Source: Actinomycetota bacterium
GTDB lineage: Bacteria; Actinomycetota; Thermoleophilia; Gaiellales; Gaiellaceae
Length of the DNA stretch: 33,979 nucleotides
Reading direction: 5' to 3'
Assembly: GCA_004366385.1 (NCBI GenBank)
Contig: SIRU01000002.1
Location: 1 to 33,979, forward strand
In this document: in pieces, positions 7,772 to 21,696 of the stretch
Position numbering within the stretch: the stretch's first letter is position 1
How the letters are laid out: the number at the start of each line of letters is the position of its first letter
Translations under genes and position numbers: made by a program
Notes under the pieces: model-generated
The model's input: only the letters and a program-made list of their open reading frames with translations
Databases searched by the model: none
Told to the model about the DNA's origin: nothing

Positions 7772-10423
7772 ATGAGTCGATTCAGAATGCGCGGCGTAGC
7801 GCTTGCCGCGGTCGCCGTCCTAGCGGCGTTCGCGGCAACCGTTGCGTTCGCGGGAGCTTCCGGCGTTCAGGAGCTCCATCCCCTCGAGCCGATGGCATCG
7901 GCCGGGGACGGCACGATGACGAACGAGACGCCCAGCTACTGGCTGGTCGAGTTCCCAACCGCCCCGCTCGCCGACGGAAGTCGCGCGGCAGACGTCGCCG
8001 CGGACGCCACGGCCTTCCGTAGCGAGGCCAAGGCGCAGGGCGCAAAGTACTCGGAGCGCATGCGCTTCCAGACCCTCTGGAACGGCGTCACGGTCGAGGC
8101 GTCGGGCGCGGACATCTCGAAGATCCAGGGGCTGTCGTCGGTCGCCGCGGTGTACCCGGGCGCCACGTACACCCTGCCCCCCCGCGCCGAGATCTCACCC
8201 GAGCTCTCGACCGCGCTCGCCATGACGGGTGCCGACGTCGCCCAGAACACGCTCGGCTACACGGGCAAGGGCATCAACGTCGCCGTCATGGACTCCGGCA
8301 TCGACTACCACCATCCGGATCTCGGGGGCGGCTTCGGCAAGGGCAAGCGCGTCTTCACCGGCTGGGACTTCGTCGGCGAGGACTTCGTCGGCGACAACAC
8401 TCCCGTCCCCGACCCCGATCCGGACGACTGCAGACGGCCGAGCGGCGGCAACGCTGCCGGCCACGGCACGCACGTCGCCGGGATCATCGGCGCGAACGGC
8501 GCCGTCAAGGGCGTCGCGCCCGGCATCCGCTTCGGCGCCTACCGCGTCTTCGGGTGCCAGGGCTTCACGACCGCGGAGATCATGATGGCGGCGATGGAGC
8601 GGGCGCTGAAGGACAAGATGGACATCCTCAACATGTCCATCGGCTCGGCGTTCAACACCTGGCCCGGCTACCCGACCGCCGCCGCGAGCGACCGCCTCGC
8701 GAAGAAGGGCGTCGTCGTCGTGGCGTCGATCGGAAACAGCGGTGTCAACGGCATCTACTCCGCCGGCGCCCCTGGCGTCGGCAACAGGGTGATCGGCACG
8801 GCGTCGTTCGACAACACGCACGTCGCGCTGACGACGTTCACGGTGACTCCGGCCGGTCTCACCATCGGCTACGCAGACGCCGCAGCGGCTCCGCTTGCCC
8901 CGACGACGGGCAGCCTGCCGCTCGCGAAGACGGGCACACCGGCGACGACCGACGACGGGTGCGCGCCATTGCCCGCCGGGAGCATGGCCGGCAAGGCCGT
9001 CCTCATTCGGCGCGGCACGTGCACGTTCCACCTCAAGGCGCTGAACGCCCAGGACGCAGGAGCGGCGGCTGTCGTTCTCTACAACAACGCCGCCGGGCGC
9101 TTCAGCCCGACCGTCGCCGGCACTCCGGCGATCACCATCCCCGTCGTCGCGATCTCCGACACGGAGGGCGTCGCCATCAACAACGCGATCGACGGTGGGG
9201 CCCAGACGCTGAACTGGACGGCCAACACCGGCACGTTCCCGAACCCGACCGCCGGGCTGATCTCGTCGTTCAGCTCGTTCGGCCTCGCGGCCGAGCTCCA
9301 GCTGAAGCCCGACATCGGCGCGCCGGGTGGGCTCATTCGCTCGACGTACCCGATCGAATACGGGTCGTACGCCACGATCAGCGGCACGTCGATGTCCTCG
9401 CCGCACGTCGCGGGGGCCGCGGCTCTGCTGCTCCAGTCGTGGAAGGGCAAGGGCAAGGACGACGACGACGACGATGACGACCGCGACAACCGCTCGGAGC
9501 TCGTTCGGGACATCCTCCAGAACAGCGCCGATCCGCGGCCGTGGTTCGGAAATCCCGGTCTCGGCTTCCTGGACAACGTGCATCGCCAGGGCGCCGGGAT
9601 GCTCGACATCGACGACGCGATCCTGGCGACGACGCTCGTGACGCCGGGCAAGCTCTCGCTCGGCGAGGGCACGACGGCGATCAAGAAGCGTCTGAAGGTC
9701 AGGAACAACAGCAAGAAGTCCGTGACGTACGCGATCTCGCACGCACCCGCGCTGAGCACCGGCCCGAACACGTTCGTGCCGGCGTTCTTCACCGGGTTCG
9801 CCGAGGTCACGTTCAGCACGACGTCGCTGACCGTCGGCAAGAGGGCGAACAAGCACCTCGACGTCACGATCACGCCGAACGCGGGGCTCCCCGACCGGAG
9901 CGTCTACGGCGGCTACATCGTGCTCGTCCCGAACGACGGCTCGCCGCCGCTGCGGGTCCCGTACGCCGGGTTCAAGGGCGACTACCAGTCGATCCAGATC
10001 CTGACCCCGACGTCCTTCGGATTCCCGCTGCTCGGGCGGACGGCGGACGGCCTGAACTTCTCGATCGTCCCGCCGGGCGGGGTCTTCAACCTCGTCGGCA
10101 CCCTCGGCCAGCCGAACATCCTCTTCCACATGGATCACCAGGCACGTCGCGCGACCCTGTGGATCGTGAGGGCGTCGGACGGCAAGGTGCTGGGCCGGGC
10201 GACCGAGCTCGAGTTCCTGCCGCGGAACAGCACGGCCACGGGCTTCTTCGCCCTTCCCTGGGACGGCACGTACCTCGCCGGCGAGAAGGGGAAGAAGAAG
10301 GTCACCGTGCCGGACGGCGAGTACCGCTTCACGCTGACCGCGGAGAAGCCGCTCGCCGAGAAGAAGAACCCCGCGCACATCGAGAGCATCACCACGGGGA
10401 ACTTCGTCATCGACCGCCCGTAG
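7772..10423 (+). CDS. Secreted S8 (subtilisin-type) serine protease 1 with PA domain
   Basis: An 883-residue exported protease. A signal peptide (positive start, hydrophobic 8-27) is followed by an I9-like propeptide (about 55-137). The catalytic triad is Asp174 (AVMDSGIDYHHPDL), His231 (GHGTHVAG) and Ser540 (SGTSMSSPHVAG), with Asn322 (SIGNSG) as the oxyanion residue. A protease-associated (PA) domain is inserted between Asn and Ser at about 365-475. Just after the Ser helix is a run of K/G then eight Asp (563-570), an odd charged block. The 300-residue C-terminal part is beta-rich, resembling Fn3-like domains of C5a-peptidase-type subtilases. ATG at 7772 follows the strong Shine-Dalgarno GGAGGGAGAG (7757-7766). 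It probably degrades extracellular protein. Confidence 0.94.
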   Translation: MSRFRMRGVALAAVAVLAAFAATVAFAGASGVQELHPLEPMASAGDGTMTNETPSYWLVEFPTAPLADGSRAADVAADATAFRSEAKAQGAKYSERMRFQTLWNGVTVEASGADISKIQGLSSVAAVYPGATYTLPPRAEISPELSTALAMTGADVAQNTLGYTGKGINVAVMDSGIDYHHPDLGGGFGKGKRVFTGWDFVGEDFVGDNTPVPDPDPDDCRRPSGGNAAGHGTHVAGIIGANGAVKGVAPGIRFGAYRVFGCQGFTTAEIMMAAMERALKDKMDILNMSIGSAFNTWPGYPTAAASDRLAKKGVVVVASIGNSGVNGIYSAGAPGVGNRVIGTASFDNTHVALTTFTVTPAGLTIGYADAAAAPLAPTTGSLPLAKTGTPATTDDGCAPLPAGSMAGKAVLIRRGTCTFHLKALNAQDAGAAAVVLYNNAAGRFSPTVAGTPAITIPVVAISDTEGVAINNAIDGGAQTLNWTANTGTFPNPTAGLISSFSSFGLAAELQLKPDIGAPGGLIRSTYPIEYGSYATISGTSMSSPHVAGAAALLLQSWKGKGKDDDDDDDDRDNRSELVRDILQNSADPRPWFGNPGLGFLDNVHRQGAGMLDIDDAILATTLVTPGKLSLGEGTTAIKKRLKVRNNSKKSVTYAISHAPALSTGPNTFVPAFFTGFAEVTFSTTSLTVGKRANKHLDVTITPNAGLPDRSVYGGYIVLVPNDGSPPLRVPYAGFKGDYQSIQILTPTSFGFPLLGRTADGLNFSIVPPGGVFNLVGTLGQPNILFHMDHQARRATLWIVRASDGKVLGRATELEFLPRNSTATGFFALPWDGTYLAGEKGKKKVTVPDGEYRFTLTAEKPLAEKKNPAHIESITTGNFVIDRP

Positions 10424-10571: not shown

Positions 10572-10973
10572 TCAACGTGTCGCGCGCGAGTCGGGGTAGT
10601 GGCGGTCGAGGAGCTCGGCCTGGAGGGCCGGCTTGCAGTCGGCGTCCGAGACCGGGGGCACGACCAAGGCGCGGCTGCCCTTCCCGCCGAGCGCCTGCAC
10701 CGAGGACACGGCGCATGCCGTGACCGGCAGCTCAAACCTGATCGTGAACGTGCCCGTCTTCGACGCGATCCTCGTGCGAACCTGGACGGCGCCGGTGGAC
10801 GAGTAGCGCACGCGAACGCGCTCATACGGCTTGAAGCCCGTGCCCCTGACGGCGAGCGGCCGGGTGTCGAGGACCTTCAGCGACGCTCGCTTCGCCTGCT
10901 TCGCGGGCGCGGCGCTCGCGACGCCCGCGGCCAGGAAGAGGGAGAGACCGACGACGAGCCCCTTACTCGTCAT
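10572..10973 (-). CDS. Small exported GFKPxERV protein, copy 1
   Basis: A 133-residue exported protein of unrecognised family. The N-terminus MTSKGLVVGLSLFLAAGVASAA is a typical signal peptide. The mature part has the core LAVRGTGFKPYERVRVRY (about residues 40-57) and GTFTIRFELPV, like an IPT/TIG or other Ig-like beta-sandwich repeat. Cys86 and Cys112 (estimated) could form a disulfide. The protein at 17065-17424 is a clear paralog (VNGVGFKPRERVTV) with the same layout and the same promoter arrangement. Both sit immediately 3' of an S8 protease, so a role such as protease partner, inhibitor or anchoring factor is a guess. ATG at 10973 has CATACT six bases upstream and no Shine-Dalgarno. Confidence 0.75.
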   Translation of the reverse strand: MTSKGLVVGLSLFLAAGVASAAPAKQAKRASLKVLDTRPLAVRGTGFKPYERVRVRYSSTGAVQVRTRIASKTGTFTIRFELPVTACAVSSVQALGGKGSRALVVPPVSDADCKPALQAELLDRHYPDSRATR

Positions 10974-11085: not shown

Positions 11086-11490
11086 CTACGCGACGAGCTC
11101 GAACTCGACCCCGACGCGCTCGTAGATTGCGAGGGCGCGCGTGTCGAGTGTCGTCAACCTCGCGTCCGCCGCGGCTGCGGTGATCGCGATCAGGCCGTCG
11201 TACGTCGCTCCACCTGCGACGCCGAGCTGCTGAAGCCGCGCGAGCGCCGTGCGGAGCGCATCGGCCGGCAGCCCGAGCCAGCGCTCCCCGAACTCGAGCT
11301 CCAGCCACTCGCGCACGACCTCGGCAGCCATTCGATGAGGCTCGGGCAGACGGGTGAGGACCGAGTACGTCTCATACGCGGCATGCGCGACGATGCTCGG
11401 ACGCCGCCCGAGGGCGGAGCGGGCGTCGAGGTGACGCGGATGCCACTCGGCGAACGCCGCGACAGCGATGCTCGCGTCGACGGCGTTCAG
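11086..11490 (-). CDS. vapC: VapC-type PIN-domain toxin, probable CTG start
   Basis: A 134-residue PIN-domain ribonuclease, toxin of a type II pair. All four acidic active-site positions are in place: Asp5 (NAVDAS), Glu48 region (AAYETYSVL), the Asp in GATYDGLIA and the Asp in TTLDTRA. Length matches full VapC proteins only if translation begins at CTG 11490. That codon overlaps the antitoxin stop as CTGA, mimicking the usual ATGA coupling. No ATG, GTG or TTG lies in frame within the last 15 antitoxin codons. The first in-frame ATG (11331) would remove the first Asp and Glu. It is either a rare CTG start under translational coupling or a start-codon mutation that silences the toxin. Confidence 0.82.
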   Translation of the reverse strand: MNAVDASIAVAAFAEWHPRHLDARSALGRRPSIVAHAAYETYSVLTRLPEPHRMAAEVVREWLELEFGERWLGLPADALRTALARLQQLGVAGGATYDGLIAITAAAADARLTTLDTRALAIYERVGVEFELVA

Positions 11491-11732
11491 CGGCGGATCT
11501 TCTCGAGCGTCTCGCGAACGAGCTCGTGGGTGAGCGGCGGTAGCTCGCGCTCGGGAACCGCGACCCAGTGGCCGTCTCGCTGCTCCAGTCGGACCGCGGT
11601 GACGACGGGCTCGATCTCGATCCGGCCGTCCGCAAGCGTCACCTCGATCTCCTCGCCCCCACGGAGACCGAGCTCATCCCTCATCGCCTTCGGCACGACG
11701 ACCCGACCTGCCTTGTCAATGGTAGTTCTCAT
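11487..11732 (-). CDS. vapB: AbrB/SpoVT-type antitoxin
   Basis: An 81-residue antitoxin with an N-terminal swapped-hairpin AbrB DNA-binding domain: TTIDKAGRVVVPKAMRDEL (residues 3-21) is the classic signature, followed by GGEEIEVTLADGRIEIEP. The C-terminal 35 residues are Glu/Arg-rich and would wrap the PIN toxin. Antitoxins of this kind repress their own operon by binding a palindrome at the start. Here a TGCCAT-CAGC-ATGGCA inverted repeat touches the ATG. The gene begins 44 bases after the uvrA stop on the same strand, so read-through from the SOS-controlled uvrA promoter is possible. Confidence 0.9.
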   Translation of the reverse strand: MRTTIDKAGRVVVPKAMRDELGLRGGEEIEVTLADGRIEIEPVVTAVRLEQRDGHWVAVPERELPPLTHELVRETLEKIRR

Positions 11733-15291: not shown

Positions 15292-15319
15292 GCCCGGGCC
15301 GGCGACCGCCGGCCCGGGC
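15292..15319. terminator. Bidirectional hairpin terminator
   Basis: GCCCGGGCCGGC (15292-15303) and GCCGGCCCGGGC (15308-15319) form a perfect 12-bp stem with loop GACC. It sits between two convergent genes. Its last base is the last base of the minus-strand gene's stop codon, so one hairpin may end both transcripts. Confidence 0.7.
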
Positions 15320-16530
15320 TACCGCCTCTCGCTGCGCGGGAGCCCCGCGCTCGTCCCGCGGACGCACCCGGCGCGATCGGCCGCGACGGGAGCGATCGCG
15401 GCGCAGGCCCGCCTTCGGGCCGTGGCCGTCGTCGAGAAGCGGCCCATGATCGTCCCGATCGCCCCGAAGCACGGCTCGCGCAGTCCGTCGTCCAGGTCCG
15501 AGCAGAGCACGGCCGCTTCCTCCCCGCCCGTGAAGTTGGCGGTCATGTCCATGGCCGCGAACCTGATGCAGTCGCGCTCGCCGCCGAACGGGCGCGCGGC
15601 GGCGCACGCCTCGGCGATCTCCTGGGGATCGCGATGCGACTGACCGGACACGTCCCGGCCCATCGACTCGAAGCACGACGCGACCCAGCCGGCCTCGACG
15701 CCCGCGCACGCCTCGGCGACCCGCTCCCAGTCGGGGCCGACGACCTGGAGCACCCGCGACGTGACGAGCTGGTAGCAGACCGCCTTGTCCCTCGGAGCGA
15801 CCGCGGAGCACGGGTAGACGGGGTCGTCGTCGCGCAGCCAGCGCGAGCGGAAGCCGTACGACGTCGAGATGTTCTCCATGAAGACCCCGCCCTTGCAGGA
15901 CTCTCGGTCCCAGCTCCCGCCGAGGCGGTTGCAGACGCGGAGCGAGCGCGGGAGGTCGTAGCCGGTCGTGATCATCAGGCCGTGCCCGAGCCCGTGCAGG
16001 CACTGGTACGCGAGCCAGGCCACGGTGCGCACCTCGCGGTCGTCGCACAGGTCCCTCGCGACCGCTGCGAGCCGCTCGGGCTGGTAGCCGCGCACGTCGA
16101 GCAGCGCCCGCTCGAGGACGCCGTGGTAGTAGCCGGACCAGCACGTCGCCGAGCCGTTCGCGAACGTCCGCGCGACGTTCCCGCGGTTCCGCGCGAACGC
16201 CGCTGAGCCGATGGTGTGCGCCACGCGGTGGCAGGCGGGGTCGGACTCGTCGGCGTACTGGGCGTCGAACCGGCGCAGCGCCGCCTTCGCTCCCTGACGG
16301 TAGGCGATGTTCCCGTAGGCCTGTTCCACGCAGCGCTGATCCGAGCACTCGTCGAGGGTCGTGTCGTCGGGTCTGAAGGAGCCCGCGACCGGATGGAGCG
16401 GAACCGCCGCTGTCGGCGTCTGCCCTCCACCGTCGGTCAAGACCACCGCGGCCACGGCCAACTCGACCCCGGCCGCAGCGACGATGAGGGCGACGACGGC
16501 TCGAAGCCGGGCTCGGCGATCCCCGCGCAT
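15319..16530 (-). CDS. Exported Cys-pair repeat protein with His-rich motifs (unknown family)
   Basis: A 403-residue exported or membrane-anchored protein I cannot assign. An N-terminal hydrophobic segment (about 10-31) is a signal or anchor. Eighteen Cys occur, at 62, 67, 100, 130, 162, 177, 200, 212, 241, 252, 275, 286, 309, 321, 343, 354, 376 and 389. From residue 162 they fall into seven units of about 34-40 residues, each with two Cys 11-15 apart, the second followed by an aromatic or aliphatic residue and a helix. This suggests disulfide-stapled helical hairpins, as in Sel1-like or Hcp-type repeats. The N-terminal half carries CHRVAH (100-105), YYHG (134-137) and CLHGLGHG (177-184), a possible metal site. 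ATG at 16530 has GATACT eight bases upstream. Divergent from the lipoprotein gene. Confidence 0.72.
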   Translation of the reverse strand: MRGDRRARLRAVVALIVAAAGVELAVAAVVLTDGGGQTPTAAVPLHPVAGSFRPDDTTLDECSDQRCVEQAYGNIAYRQGAKAALRRFDAQYADESDPACHRVAHTIGSAAFARNRGNVARTFANGSATCWSGYYHGVLERALLDVRGYQPERLAAVARDLCDDREVRTVAWLAYQCLHGLGHGLMITTGYDLPRSLRVCNRLGGSWDRESCKGGVFMENISTSYGFRSRWLRDDDPVYPCSAVAPRDKAVCYQLVTSRVLQVVGPDWERVAEACAGVEAGWVASCFESMGRDVSGQSHRDPQEIAEACAAARPFGGERDCIRFAAMDMTANFTGGEEAAVLCSDLDDGLREPCFGAIGTIMGRFSTTATARRRACAAIAPVAADRAGCVRGTSAGLPRSERR

Positions 16531-17064: not shown

Positions 17065-17424
17065 CTAGGGCTCGCGGCAGTCGGGGCGCGGCACCTGGTA
17101 CACGACCCTGCTTCCCCGGGAGCCGATCGCACGCACCGTGACCGTCGCGCAGCGCCCCAGCCGGACCGGGAAGCGGACGGTGAACCGGCCCTGGCGACTC
17201 GCCTGCACGCGCCTCGTGCCGCGCTTGCCCCCGTCGAGGGTCACGGTTACCCGCTCGCGCGGCTTGAAGCCCACGCCGTTCACGGTCAGCGGATACAGCT
17301 CCGCGACCAGCAGGCGCGGCTTGAGGACGACTTGCGTCGACCCTCCGTCGGCGCCTGAGCCGGTCCCGCACCCCAGCCCGAACACGACCACCGACGACAG
17401 CACGGCGAGCATACGCCGGCGCAT
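17065..17424 (-). CDS. Small exported GFKPxERV protein, copy 2
   Basis: A 119-residue exported protein, paralog of the one at 10572-10973. Shared features are an N-terminal signal, LTVNGVGFKPRERVTVTL (copy 1: LAVRGTGFKPYERVRVRY), a GRFTVRFPV strand and two late Cys separated by about 25 residues. The signal ends VVFGLGCGTG, so Cys19 may be lipidated, although the -3 residue is not the usual Leu. The Ig-like (IPT/TIG) fold is an inference. It lies 75 bases downstream of S8 protease 2 on the same strand, after a hairpin. CATACT lies 6 bases before the ATG, identical to copy 1, so it is probably transcribed separately and leaderless. Confidence 0.73.
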   Translation of the reverse strand: MRRRMLAVLSSVVVFGLGCGTGSGADGGSTQVVLKPRLLVAELYPLTVNGVGFKPRERVTVTLDGGKRGTRRVQASRQGRFTVRFPVRLGRCATVTVRAIGSRGSRVVYQVPRPDCREP

Positions 17425-17499: not shown

Positions 17500-20400
17500 T
17501 TACGGTGCGGTCTTCGTCACCGTGATCGGCACGGAGATCGCAGCAGGTGCTGACGGCGGCCCGAGCATGAGCAGGCCGAAGTAGTCCTGCCCGTCGACCA
17601 TGTCGAGCTTCGAGTAGTCGACTGTGACGGTCACCGGCGTCCCGGCCGGAACCGGCCCCGAGGGAGCAGTCACCGTCAGGTCGTTCCCCTGGATCGGGTC
17701 GATGGTGAGCTCCGCGGTCGGCGTCCCGGTGACAGCCCAGCCCTGCACCCACACCTGGTAGTTGCCGTCCGGCGGGAGGTTGAGCTGCACGAACTCGTCG
17801 CCCGTCGGCGTCGTGGACGCACCGACGATCTCCGCGTTCGTGAAGTTCCCGTCGCCGTTGGCGTCACGCACGACGAAGAGATCGATGTCGTCTCCGGTCG
17901 TCATGCGCGTTCTCACGGTGAGCCGCCCGGCATGACTCAGCGTGAGGTTCCGCTTCACGCTCGCCGAGCTCGGGTCGTTCGGGTCGTCCTGCTGCACCGT
18001 GACGTTCTCCAGCGTCGGCTGCGAGAGGCCGAACGCGTGGGCGGCCAGCCCGTCGAGCGCAAAGCCCGACGTGAAGGTCACGTCGAACGTGCCCGTGCCA
18101 TCGATGGTCGTCTCGACGACCGAGGACGGGGCGACCGACGCGCCGGCGACCTCGCTCAGGAACGGCGCGTGGAACTTCCCGCCATGCCAGCCGACCTGGT
18201 GCAGGACCACGGCGTGCAGCCCGTCCTGCGCAGGTGCAGTGACGAAGTCGGCCGCACCCCCGGTCGCGGTGTCGAACAGCCAGACGCCCCCGCCGAGGTT
18301 CGCGTTGGGGCTCCCGCCGACGGTGTCGAGGATGTACGGCGCCCCGAACACGGTGTCGGGAAAGAGCTGGAAGTGGTTCACGGCAGGACCGAAGAGCAGC
18401 GTGTCGAGGTCCGTGAACGGAGCCGTGTCGTCCCAGGTCGTCCGGGTCAGGAAGAGCGATCCGGGCGGCGGCTCCTGCCCGACGTCGAAGTAGAAGAACC
18501 GCCAGTCGCCGGACTCGGCGCGCCAGGTCCAGTCGTTCGCGCCGAAGACGGACCCGTTGTTGTAGAGGAGGTCCTTCTGCGCCTCGGCCACTGCCGGCCC
18601 GCCGAACGTCAGCGCGCCGGTGAGGTTGCCGGCGGCGTCCTGCGTCGCAGTCGCCGCGACCGCCACCGACACCGGGATCACCATCGAGTCGCCGCTCCGC
18701 GACAGCTCGATCGCGCCTGCGTACATGCCGTACGGCGTCCCGGGCGGCACGCTGATCGACGCCGCGAACGAGCCGCTCGCCGTCGCCGGCGTCGACATCC
18801 ACGCCCAGTCGACGTTCTCGTAGAAGTCGATCTGGACCTGGAAGTCGGTGATCGGGATGGCGTTGCTCCTGAGCGAGTGCTGGAGGCCCATGAAGATCCC
18901 GTCCGCCTCCTTCAGGCGCCTCGCCGGTTCCCGGAGAAACGACATGAGCGCGTTGGAGCCCGCCCGGTGGTACATGTTGCGGACGTACTCGCCCTCGTCG
19001 ATCTCCGACTTCTTGAAGTCGATGTCGAGGAAGCCGTCGATGTTGCTGCTCGTCGTGTGGATGACCTTGTCGACGACCCCGTCGCCGTCCTTGTCCCGCC
19101 ACAGCCGGCCGTCACGGTCGATGTCGGTCCAGCTGTAGGTGAGCAGCCGCCAGTCCTGGTTCTGGCTGTAGTTCCCGTCGGGGTCGAACTGCTCCCGTGG
19201 GTAGTTCAGCCGGATGACCATGAGGTCGGCGTTCTTGTGCGACCTGATCAGCGGCGAGAGGTCGCGCAGGTAGTCGGGCGCGTTGAAGTTGTACGGGCTC
19301 TCGTTCGACACGTGCTTGCTCGAGAACGAGAACGACTTGGTCCCGGTCCGCTTCAGCATCCGGTCGGACACGTTCCACGTACCCGCGCCGGTCAGCGTGA
19401 ACGTCTGAGTATCGGAGCCGCCGGGCGCGATGACGTGCGCGAACACGTCGTACTCGGTCCCGCGATAGTCGCCGGCGCGCCACTGGCTCGGCGAGACACG
19501 CGCACGCTGCCCGAGCGCCGTCTTGACCGCCTTTCCGGCATCGATCGAGCCCGCACCCTGAATCGTCGACTCGTACCCGAGGTCCTGCGCCGACGACTTC
19601 AGGATGTCCTCGACCGTGGTGTAGAAGCCCAGCGGCAGCGGGCCGGGGTTCGCCTGCCGGTACGCCTGGTACACGAGAGCAGCAGCCGCTCCGGCCACGG
19701 GCGCGGAACGGCTCGTCCCGCCCCAGGTCGCCCACGCCTCGTTGCCGTGGAGCACCGCGTTCAGCGTGACGTCGCCTGCCGAGAACGCACCGTCGGCGAC
19801 GACGTCGACGCCCGGCCGGCCCGTCGCCCCGAACCCGCGGTTCGACCAGACCATCACCTCGTTGTCGACGACCTGGCCGATCCTGTCGATCGAGTCCCAG
19901 CCCGTGCCGCCGAACTGCGTGGAGGCGCCGACCTCGATACCTGCGGCCGGTGCCGGCGGCGCGGTCGTCCCGAAGCCGGGCGCACCGTTCCCAGTGGAGA
20001 AGAGCGCCGTCGTCCGGCGCCCTGCGTGGATGACGTCGGCCTCCTGGCTCGCCGCGTCGTAGCCGTCGTTGTCGACCGCCGAGTCGCCGTACGAGTTCGT
20101 CGTCACGTCGACACCGAGGCGCGTCGCGAGGAAGTACCCGAACTGCGTGGAGAAGTCGAACGAGAAGTAGATGTCCCCGAACGGGGCGAGCTTGGCGTGC
20201 GGGGCGCCGCCGATGACCGCGCCCGGGTACGTCTTGCCGCCCCCGTCGTCGCCGTGCCCCTTGCCGCGGCACGGAACGGCGCCGGTCTTCTTGCGGAGAT
20301 CGGAGAAGCACGGCGCCTTGCCGTTGATGACGCCCTGGCCGACGACGTTGGACGCGGTCAGCGTGCCGTGACCGCCGATGGCCGGGTCGTAGTCTCCCGT

Positions 20401-21696
20401 CCAGGCGAGGAGCTGCCCGGGTGCGAAGGCGCTCCCGGGTATCCCGCCGAACGCGAACACGCCGCCGGGGACGCTCGTCACCCCGTCCGAGATGTAGTAC
20501 AGGAGCCCGCCCGAGATGTCGGTGTAGCCGTCGCCGTCCATGTCCCTGTACGAGACGGGCGAGGACTTGGACGCGGGCTTCTCGTCGGCGAAGTCGTAGT
20601 CGCCGTCGAGATCCACGTAGACGGTGTCGTAGATGCCCGCCGTCTTCGGATCGGTGACGAGGAACGCGGGCCGCTCGCCGAAGATCGCGAGCAGGTGGTC
20701 GTCGGGATGGCTCCCGAGCCGCACGTTCCCGGACTTCGACCACTCCGCGGGGAACGTGTAGTCGTGCGTGACGGTGCCGCTCGGTGCGTTGAAGTTGCGC
20801 GCCGGCCCCGTGCGCGTGGCGAAGTTGACGGTGCACGTCTTGTTCTTGCCGTGGCCCTTCTTGCCCGGGCCAGTGAGCGAGCAGGTCTTCGCCTGGGTCA
20901 GCGTGTACCAGCTGAGACCCTGGGGGATGAAGCTCGGCGCGGCGAGCCAGACGAGCGTCCCGTACGGATCGAACGCCTTCGGCCAGCCGTCCCAGCCGGG
21001 ATCCGGAGCGCCCGACCACGTCTGCCAGGTGCCGATCAGGTCGGGGTGGCCGAAGTCGGTGCCGCCGTCGAGGACGCCGACGGTCGTGCCGGCGCCGGTG
21101 AACCCGGCCTTCCACGCCTCGACGAAGTTGTGCGTCTTCGCGTCGAGAACGGCGAGCTTCTTGAGTTGCTCGAAGTTCGAGCCCTTGAGCTTGGGCGCCT
21201 TCGAGAACGGGACCTCGCGCTTGTAGAGGCCCTTGAGCACCGCGTTCACCTTCTGCTTGTCGAAGGGCTTCGCGAGCTCCGGCTCGGGGCTCCCGAGCGG
21301 CGCACCCGTCTGCTCGAAGTCGATGGGGCCGACGCTGACCACGCCCCTGGCGCCGGCCAGCTTCGGCAGGGCCTGCACCGTGGTCTCGCCGACGACGAGC
21401 GCGGCGCCGCCGGAGGCGGCCACCTTGTCGTCGTCCAGGAGCGCGCGCACGGGTGCCGCGCTGCCCTCCACGGTGACGAACACCTTGACGTCCTCGGTCG
21501 AGCCGCTCTCCACCTTCTCGACGAGCGCGGGATGCAGCTTCGAAAGCGCCCCGGATGACGCGGTCTCCACCGATCCCGGCCCCTTCGCCGCGTCGCTCGA
21601 GTCGGCGACGACGCTCGCGGGCACCGCGAGCACCACGGCCGCGGCGGCGACCACGAGAGCGGCGCGCCTGGCAAACCGATCGTAGAAAAGGCTCAT
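17500..21696 (-). CDS. Large secreted S8 serine protease 2 with Ca-binding-like insert
   Basis: A 1398-residue exported subtilase. A signal peptide (hydrophobic 12-30) is followed by a propeptide-like region to about 190. The triad is Asp210 (VGVLDGGTDFGHPDL), His443 (GGHGTLTAS) and Ser662 (GGTSRSAPVAG), with Asn570 (STGNG) as the oxyanion residue. About 230 residues separate Asp and His, far more than usual. This insert contains Asp-rich loops DLDGDYDFADE (362-372) and DMDGDGYTDISG (385-396), like Ca-binding repeats. More such loops occur near 865-885 (DIDRDGR, DKDGDGVVDK) and 1275-1290 (DANGDGNF). The last 200 residues are beta-rich and pre-peptidase-C-like. ATG at 21696 follows AGGGGGAGG; in-frame upstream codons are not signal-like. 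Confidence 0.93.
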   Translation of the reverse strand: MSLFYDRFARRAALVVAAAAVVLAVPASVVADSSDAAKGPGSVETASSGALSKLHPALVEKVESGSTEDVKVFVTVEGSAAPVRALLDDDKVAASGGAALVVGETTVQALPKLAGARGVVSVGPIDFEQTGAPLGSPEPELAKPFDKQKVNAVLKGLYKREVPFSKAPKLKGSNFEQLKKLAVLDAKTHNFVEAWKAGFTGAGTTVGVLDGGTDFGHPDLIGTWQTWSGAPDPGWDGWPKAFDPYGTLVWLAAPSFIPQGLSWYTLTQAKTCSLTGPGKKGHGKNKTCTVNFATRTGPARNFNAPSGTVTHDYTFPAEWSKSGNVRLGSHPDDHLLAIFGERPAFLVTDPKTAGIYDTVYVDLDGDYDFADEKPASKSSPVSYRDMDGDGYTDISGGLLYYISDGVTSVPGGVFAFGGIPGSAFAPGQLLAWTGDYDPAIGGHGTLTASNVVGQGVINGKAPCFSDLRKKTGAVPCRGKGHGDDGGGKTYPGAVIGGAPHAKLAPFGDIYFSFDFSTQFGYFLATRLGVDVTTNSYGDSAVDNDGYDAASQEADVIHAGRRTTALFSTGNGAPGFGTTAPPAPAAGIEVGASTQFGGTGWDSIDRIGQVVDNEVMVWSNRGFGATGRPGVDVVADGAFSAGDVTLNAVLHGNEAWATWGGTSRSAPVAGAAAALVYQAYRQANPGPLPLGFYTTVEDILKSSAQDLGYESTIQGAGSIDAGKAVKTALGQRARVSPSQWRAGDYRGTEYDVFAHVIAPGGSDTQTFTLTGAGTWNVSDRMLKRTGTKSFSFSSKHVSNESPYNFNAPDYLRDLSPLIRSHKNADLMVIRLNYPREQFDPDGNYSQNQDWRLLTYSWTDIDRDGRLWRDKDGDGVVDKVIHTTSSNIDGFLDIDFKKSEIDEGEYVRNMYHRAGSNALMSFLREPARRLKEADGIFMGLQHSLRSNAIPITDFQVQIDFYENVDWAWMSTPATASGSFAASISVPPGTPYGMYAGAIELSRSGDSMVIPVSVAVAATATQDAAGNLTGALTFGGPAVAEAQKDLLYNNGSVFGANDWTWRAESGDWRFFYFDVGQEPPPGSLFLTRTTWDDTAPFTDLDTLLFGPAVNHFQLFPDTVFGAPYILDTVGGSPNANLGGGVWLFDTATGGAADFVTAPAQDGLHAVVLHQVGWHGGKFHAPFLSEVAGASVAPSSVVETTIDGTGTFDVTFTSGFALDGLAAHAFGLSQPTLENVTVQQDDPNDPSSASVKRNLTLSHAGRLTVRTRMTTGDDIDLFVVRDANGDGNFTNAEIVGASTTPTGDEFVQLNLPPDGNYQVWVQGWAVTGTPTAELTIDPIQGNDLTVTAPSGPVPAGTPVTVTVDYSKLDMVDGQDYFGLLMLGPPSAPAAISVPITVTKTAP

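Follow-up and report, generated by a model that had tools for sequence, protein, structure and literature searches.

What could be the function of a bacterial protein that combines a regular series of cysteine pairs with a cluster of histidines? We have addressed this question for one gene in the window, that is, the whole stretch of 33,979 nucleotides of contig SIRU01000002.1 (Actinomycetota, Gaiellaceae), by following its relatives across genomes, their fused domains and the predicted fold of the protein.

Gene, Topology, and Surroundings

The features of the gene are collected in table 1. Its translation reproduces exactly the reading frame, the cysteine positions, the period of 33–41 residues and the distances of 11–15 residues within pairs that had been read from the DNA in the original prediction, as well as its three histidine-bearing motifs. 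A spurious reading frame in high-GC DNA is ruled out, since relatives with as little as about 19% identity keep the cysteines and histidines. The basic residues 1–11 precede the only transmembrane helix found by hydropathy and, following the positive-inside rule and given its cysteine content, the remaining Cys/His domain of about 370 residues, which contains 18 cysteines, would face the outside. The protein had been considered exported; the location of the domain outside the membrane agrees with this, but the single helix anchors it, so that it is not freely exported. Inspection of the sequence revealed no CxxCH heme motif.

Table 1. Positions of the features of the gene in the window and of short related genes on other contigs
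Feature	Position	Strand	Basis
Whole gene: membrane-anchored Cys-pair/His repeat protein, 403 residues, ATG start	15319..16530 (including stop)	minus	ORF, translation, 68 relatives
Single N-terminal transmembrane helix, residues 12–30	16441..16497	minus	hydropathy scan
HPVAG motif, residues 46–50	16381..16395	minus	sequence listing of relatives
CHRVAH (100–105): Cys100, His101, His105; long helix B1	16216..16233	minus	conservation and predicted helix
YYHG (134–137): His136; helix B2	16120..16131	minus	His in 58, Met in 10 relatives
CLHGLGHG (177–184): Cys177, His179, His183; helix B3	15979..16002	minus	both His in 68/68
CKGGVFMEN: Cys212, Met218; helix B4	15871..15897	minus	Met in 48, His in 18 relatives
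Seven Cys pairs, 162/177 to 376/389, predicted helical hairpins	15364..16047	minus	AlphaFold2 and Cys listing
Short first-hairpin gene directly upstream of a group B member, L117	2163-2471		
Same, L125	3696-3998		
Same, L126	1646-1951		

A secreted-protein gene flanks the gene on one side and a divergent lipoprotein-like gene on the other, with uvrA upstream; in the orthologue L002 (64% identity) uvrA also adjoins the gene and a similar lipoprotein gene lies close by. No copper genes were seen adjoining the gene in the window. Two small secreted proteins encoded around it (10575-10973 and 17068-17412, both minus) share a GFKPxERV motif and are apparently paralogues, with no Pfam family above cut-off. 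The region 11089-11732 (minus) carries a gene for a MazE/AbrB-type antitoxin (PF04014, 1.8e-10) and then a short ORF resembling the end of a PIN-type toxin, which is possibly frameshifted or annotated short. Two large secreted proteases are encoded further out, a subtilase with PA and Fn3-like domains (7787-10420, plus) and another that looks subtilase-like by eye (17503-21696, minus).

Distribution and Novelty of the Family

Genome searches retrieved relatives in 14 of 61 close genomes, 27 of 396 in the phylum and 48 of 349 in the class, and beyond these in one Deinococcales MAG, a plasmid of Gemmatirosa (Gemmatimonadota) and a plasmid of Kitasatospora. Since a single genome among 111 of the Deinococcota contains a relative, we rejected this phylum as a real second home of the family, and the Deinococcales copy is likely due to transfer or mis-binning. 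Our alignment comprises 68 sequences, of which 47 form group A (E<1e-40) and 21 are the more distant members of group B; identity among distant relatives is about 19–25%.

The protein of the window has no match in PHROGs and no sequence match in the PDB, where a profile search also found no solved relative, and its repeat and histidine region has no convincing match in Pfam or NCBIfam. Two candidates, Pfam DUF998 (E=0.05) and NCBIfam CU044_5270 (17.6 bits against a cut-off of 100), were dismissed because they reach only the N-terminal transmembrane region. When all 68 members were scanned with Pfam and NCBIfam, attached N-terminal modules were matched, the other matches being weak or scattered. 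A viral origin is ruled out, as neither a relative in viral contigs nor a PHROG was found, and searching the literature by motif returned nothing relevant. The earlier impression that no described family shows this combination thus withstood comparison with these four resources: judged against them, the family is undescribed, its role probably being of a known kind, and an unnamed cluster may exist elsewhere. As there is apparently no Pfam or NCBIfam model, its members are likely annotated as hypothetical proteins, as is the Kitasatospora copy.

Shorter relatives were also encountered. Homologues of about 150 residues matching the first part of the domain (L077-L085) occur in one genus (g74 of family f27), and the two that we read, L077 and L078, have lost the ligand histidines and may represent a degenerate or repurposed offshoot. 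Upstream of some group B members, a short gene apparently encodes only the first cysteine hairpin, in the manner of a truncated tandem copy (table 1).

Cysteine Pairs and Predicted Fold

The 18 cysteines form nine pairs: 62/67, 100/130, 162/177, 200/212, 241/252, 275/286, 309/321, 343/354, and 376/389. In the last seven, the first cysteines follow each other at spacings of 38, 41, 34, 34, 34, and 33 residues. Distances of 33–35 residues between cysteines occur 10 times, compared with 2.3 expected under random placement (p ~1e-4), a result that rejects chance periodicity. The pairs from 162/177 to 343/354 are kept in 63–67 of the 68 relatives; Cys100 and Cys130 are both missing in L121 and L090, while 376/389 are jointly absent in 26 sequences. 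This tendency of the two members of a pair to vanish together, not singly, supports the proposed pairing.

AlphaFold2, run with an alignment of only three sequences (the protein of the window, L002 and L003), predicts a protein made of helices only (pLDDT 79.6, pTM 0.73), arranged as a series of hairpins with a short A helix and a long B helix. In most of the later pairs the short A helix carries one cysteine at its end and the long B helix the other near its start, as expected from the suggestion of helical hairpin repeats in the original prediction; the putative disulfides would bridge the two arms of one hairpin in most cases. The histidine region had been thought to precede the repeats, but in the model the first hairpins carry it on their long helices. 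Four successive B helices carry His101 and His105, His136, His179 and His183, and Met218; counted from the B-helix cysteine, positions 136, 183 and 218 lie at +6 and position 179 at +2, with 101 and 105 one residue off this register. Residues 88–225 predicted separately gave the same helices with lower confidence (pLDDT 69.8).

Fold searches against the PDB returned only generic alpha-repeat proteins, with best Z scores of 7.2 and 6.5; proteasome, spliceosome, and designed repeat proteins are examples. None of the matches stands out, and such generic matches are no evidence of kinship.

Positions Restricted to Histidine or Methionine

Across the 296 well-filled columns of the alignment (66–68 sequences per position), exactly six contain nothing but His or Met, namely positions 101, 105, 136, 179, 183, and 218. 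Four of them are invariant histidines (His101 in 67/67 and His105, His179 and His183 each in 68/68 sequences), which are also the only residues, Cys and Gly aside, with a conservation of 93% or more. The two remaining positions vary in a linked manner: in group A the combination is His136/Met218 in 45 members, two more lacking data, and in group B it is Met/His in 10, His/His in eight and His/Met in three, Met at both positions never being observed. The five histidines whose conservation was to be checked are all conserved, four of them in every sequence and the fifth with replacement by Met alone, and the sixth ligand-like position, Met218, had been overlooked when the putative metal-binding region was first delineated.

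Restriction to His and Met is typical of metal ligands, especially those of copper, although heme ligands can show the same pattern. It is likely that the family binds a metal, and this metal would probably be copper, not another metal or heme; the conservation of the six positions is compatible with copper being bound through them.

Association with Copper and Redox Modules

The main new result, which goes beyond what could be seen in the window, is the copper and redox context of the relatives. N-terminal modules of the 68 members include Cytochrome_CBB3/Cytochrom_C in 14, CopC, accompanied by CopD-type membrane segments, in eight, a CopD match in five, and cupredoxin in four; none of the 21 group B members has a fused copper or redox module, and the Pfam scan found neither CopC nor CopD in the protein of the window. 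In a quick tree of the domain alone, in which long branches were noted, the cytochrome c, CopC/CopD and cupredoxin fusions fall in different clades. The standalone proteins that group with that of the window branch from inside the clade of cytochrome fusions and therefore have probably lost the cytochrome domain; they also carry the HPVAG motif, which is absent from their cytochrome-fused relatives. In L027 and L032 the order is CopC, eight transmembrane segments by hydropathy, and then the domain.

Gene neighbourhoods of relatives reveal no operon partner shared across the family. A member gene of L121 overlaps the gene of a cupredoxin lipoprotein and adjoins a cytochrome-fused member; the Kitasatospora copy is followed by the oxidase assembly factor Caa3_CtaG (7e-74), with a CcsB gene nearby; and the L052 member is followed by a gene with weak, below cut-off similarity to cytochrome b5. 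Combining the kept His/Met positions with the many fusions to copper or electron carriers, we consider the family to be probably copper-handling. An apparent Ser/Thr protein kinase gene precedes the CopC-CopD-fused members of L056, L057 and L058 on the same strand, the gap being 2 bp in L058 and larger in the other two, and apparent iron-sulfur cluster assembly (Suf) genes lie beside the cytochrome-fused members of L045, L048 and L121.

Co-occurrence with COX2 and Sco1

We then considered 103 genomes of the taxonomic family to which the window belongs, 21 of which contain a group A member. Of these 21, 20 have COX2 and only four have Sco1, the latter compared with 51 of the 82 others (p=5e-4, uncorrected for relatedness). 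Among genomes that are at least 90% complete, Sco1 was found in one of nine with a member and 17 of 26 without (p=0.007), the difference being weaker by genus (4/13 vs 14/21, p=0.08). Sco1 in genome G013 was scored in one scan and not in another, and counting it gives p=0.003. The test is post hoc, having been made after the idea arose. In the genome of the window we found two COX2 genes and one YtkA-like gene, and did not detect Sco1. The rarity of Sco1 in genomes with a member is consistent with the idea that the protein substitutes for Sco.

Possible Function and Alternative Explanations

How could these properties be combined? The reading that fits the data best, to which we give roughly even chances, is that the family is an undescribed extracytoplasmic copper-binding module for delivering copper, or transferring electrons, to copper enzymes. 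The disulfide-locked repeat of helical hairpins would serve as the scaffold for a metal site, with four successive B helices presenting six putative ligands (HxxxH, His or Met, HxxxH, Met or His) in nearly the same register. On the outer side of the membrane, this site would most likely bind one or two copper ions. Copper or electrons may be received from a CopC-CopD, cupredoxin or cytochrome c, either tethered or separate, and the copper, or electrons destined for it, could be handed to heme-copper oxidases (CuA oxidase) or other exported copper enzymes; we infer this direction of transfer and this target. In fused relatives the source (CopC-CopD copper importer, cupredoxin, or cytochrome c) would be built in, and in the lineage of the window the domain would act alone on its membrane anchor with separate partners. 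A role specifically in CuA/oxidase metallation is possible and on balance doubtful. The boldest version is unlikely: a disulfide-stapled solenoid would carry, on consecutive helices, a new class of copper site, His4(His/Met)2, and would serve as a CuA/oxidase metallochaperone that replaces Sco in Sco-less actinobacteria, its fusions to copper importers, cupredoxins, and cytochromes c having arisen independently.

The same fusions could instead be read as those of a redox enzyme, in which a catalytic mono- or dicopper His/Met centre would reduce or oxidise a small substrate and cytochrome c, cupredoxin and the cytochrome b5-like protein would be interchangeable carriers. Among the fused domains and neighbours, three kinds are indeed electron carriers, and the HxxxH pairs on helices recall coupled dicopper sites; however, CopC-CopD is a module of copper transport and not of electron transport, beyond the six ligands neither a catalytic residue nor a substrate pocket can be recognised, and no common operon names a substrate, so that we regard this explanation as rather unlikely. 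The exchange of His and Met is equally known among heme ligands, and the cytochrome c fusions, the weak cytochrome b5-like neighbour and CcsB near the Kitasatospora copy would suit a b-type heme protein, a cytochrome for electron transfer built on a helical scaffold, with two of the conserved His/Met residues as axial ligands. Yet one heme needs fewer than six conserved positions, and the CopC-CopD, cupredoxin and CtaG partners indicate copper, which renders this possibility very unlikely.

The only fold matches are generic solenoids, and binding proteins is the usual role of alpha-solenoids; the domain might thus be a protein-binding scaffold devoid of copper or redox role, its conserved histidines being structural or zinc-binding. 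Four histidines invariant at about 19–25% identity, together with two further positions restricted to His or Met, are nevertheless unusual for helical-repeat adaptors, and we find this interpretation highly improbable.

Comparison with Known Copper Proteins

A close parallel to the copper module proposed here is offered by Bacillus YcnJ, a CopC-CopD-YtkA protein whose function depends on copper-binding residues of CopC and CopD and whose YtkA domain acts as a backup for CtaK during CuA assembly (PMC13344008). YtkA occupies the same slot after CopC and a CopD-type membrane region as our domain does in L027 and L032. Both YtkA/CtaK and the family are extracytoplasmic and linked to copper, CuA assembly being the known role of YtkA (PMC13344008), but none of the 68 members matches PF13115, and the family is predicted to form an all-helical repeat, with 18 cysteines in the protein of the window. 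Sco1/SenC proteins are likewise membrane-anchored and outward-facing, and tend to exclude the family in its home taxon; Sco1 is, however, thioredoxin-like with the motif CXXXC...H (PMC9145763), in contrast to the predicted all-alpha repeat of the family, and PF02630 matches 0/68 members. The lack of Sco and YtkA profile matches and the different predicted fold argue that the protein of the window is neither of these. PCuAC shares the set of His and Met ligands; its fold, however, resembles that of cupredoxins and its motif is H(M)X10MX21HXM (PMC9145763), the family having other motifs and being all-helical by prediction. Judged from its context, the family may act in the manner of YtkA/CtaK, Sco, and PCuAC.

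With regard to the repeats themselves, they had been likened in length to TPR or Sel1, a resemblance that stands at the level of generic helical repeats and does not extend to profiles: no Sel1/TPR Pfam match was obtained for the protein of the window at E<=10, nor for the 68 members at E<=0.01. The Helicobacter Hcp proteins are exported Sel1-like proteins with helical hairpin repeats of about 34–36 residues and one disulfide per repeat. The repeat length and the tandem hairpins are alike, which is no proof of kinship as hairpins are general, and the family differs in its invariant His/Met set, its cysteines 11–15 residues apart, and the lack of PDB sequence matches. Type 3 coupled dicopper proteins such as hemocyanin and tyrosinase have HxxxH pairs and further histidines on neighbouring helices, with six ligands in total; the family resembles them in its HxxxH pairs and six ligands but has no profile match, exchanges His with Met, and has a predicted repeat fold.

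Implications

Corynebacterium glutamicum apparently lacks a homologue of Sco (PMC9145763), and some Actinomycetota possess CuA oxidases without the usual CuA chaperone. If the copper-binding module proposed here were real, it would place a metal site on a repeat scaffold, an arrangement for which we found no precedent, with six positions that can each be mutated individually. The family may provide these bacteria with a part of copper trafficking or copper redox chemistry, for which it is a testable candidate.
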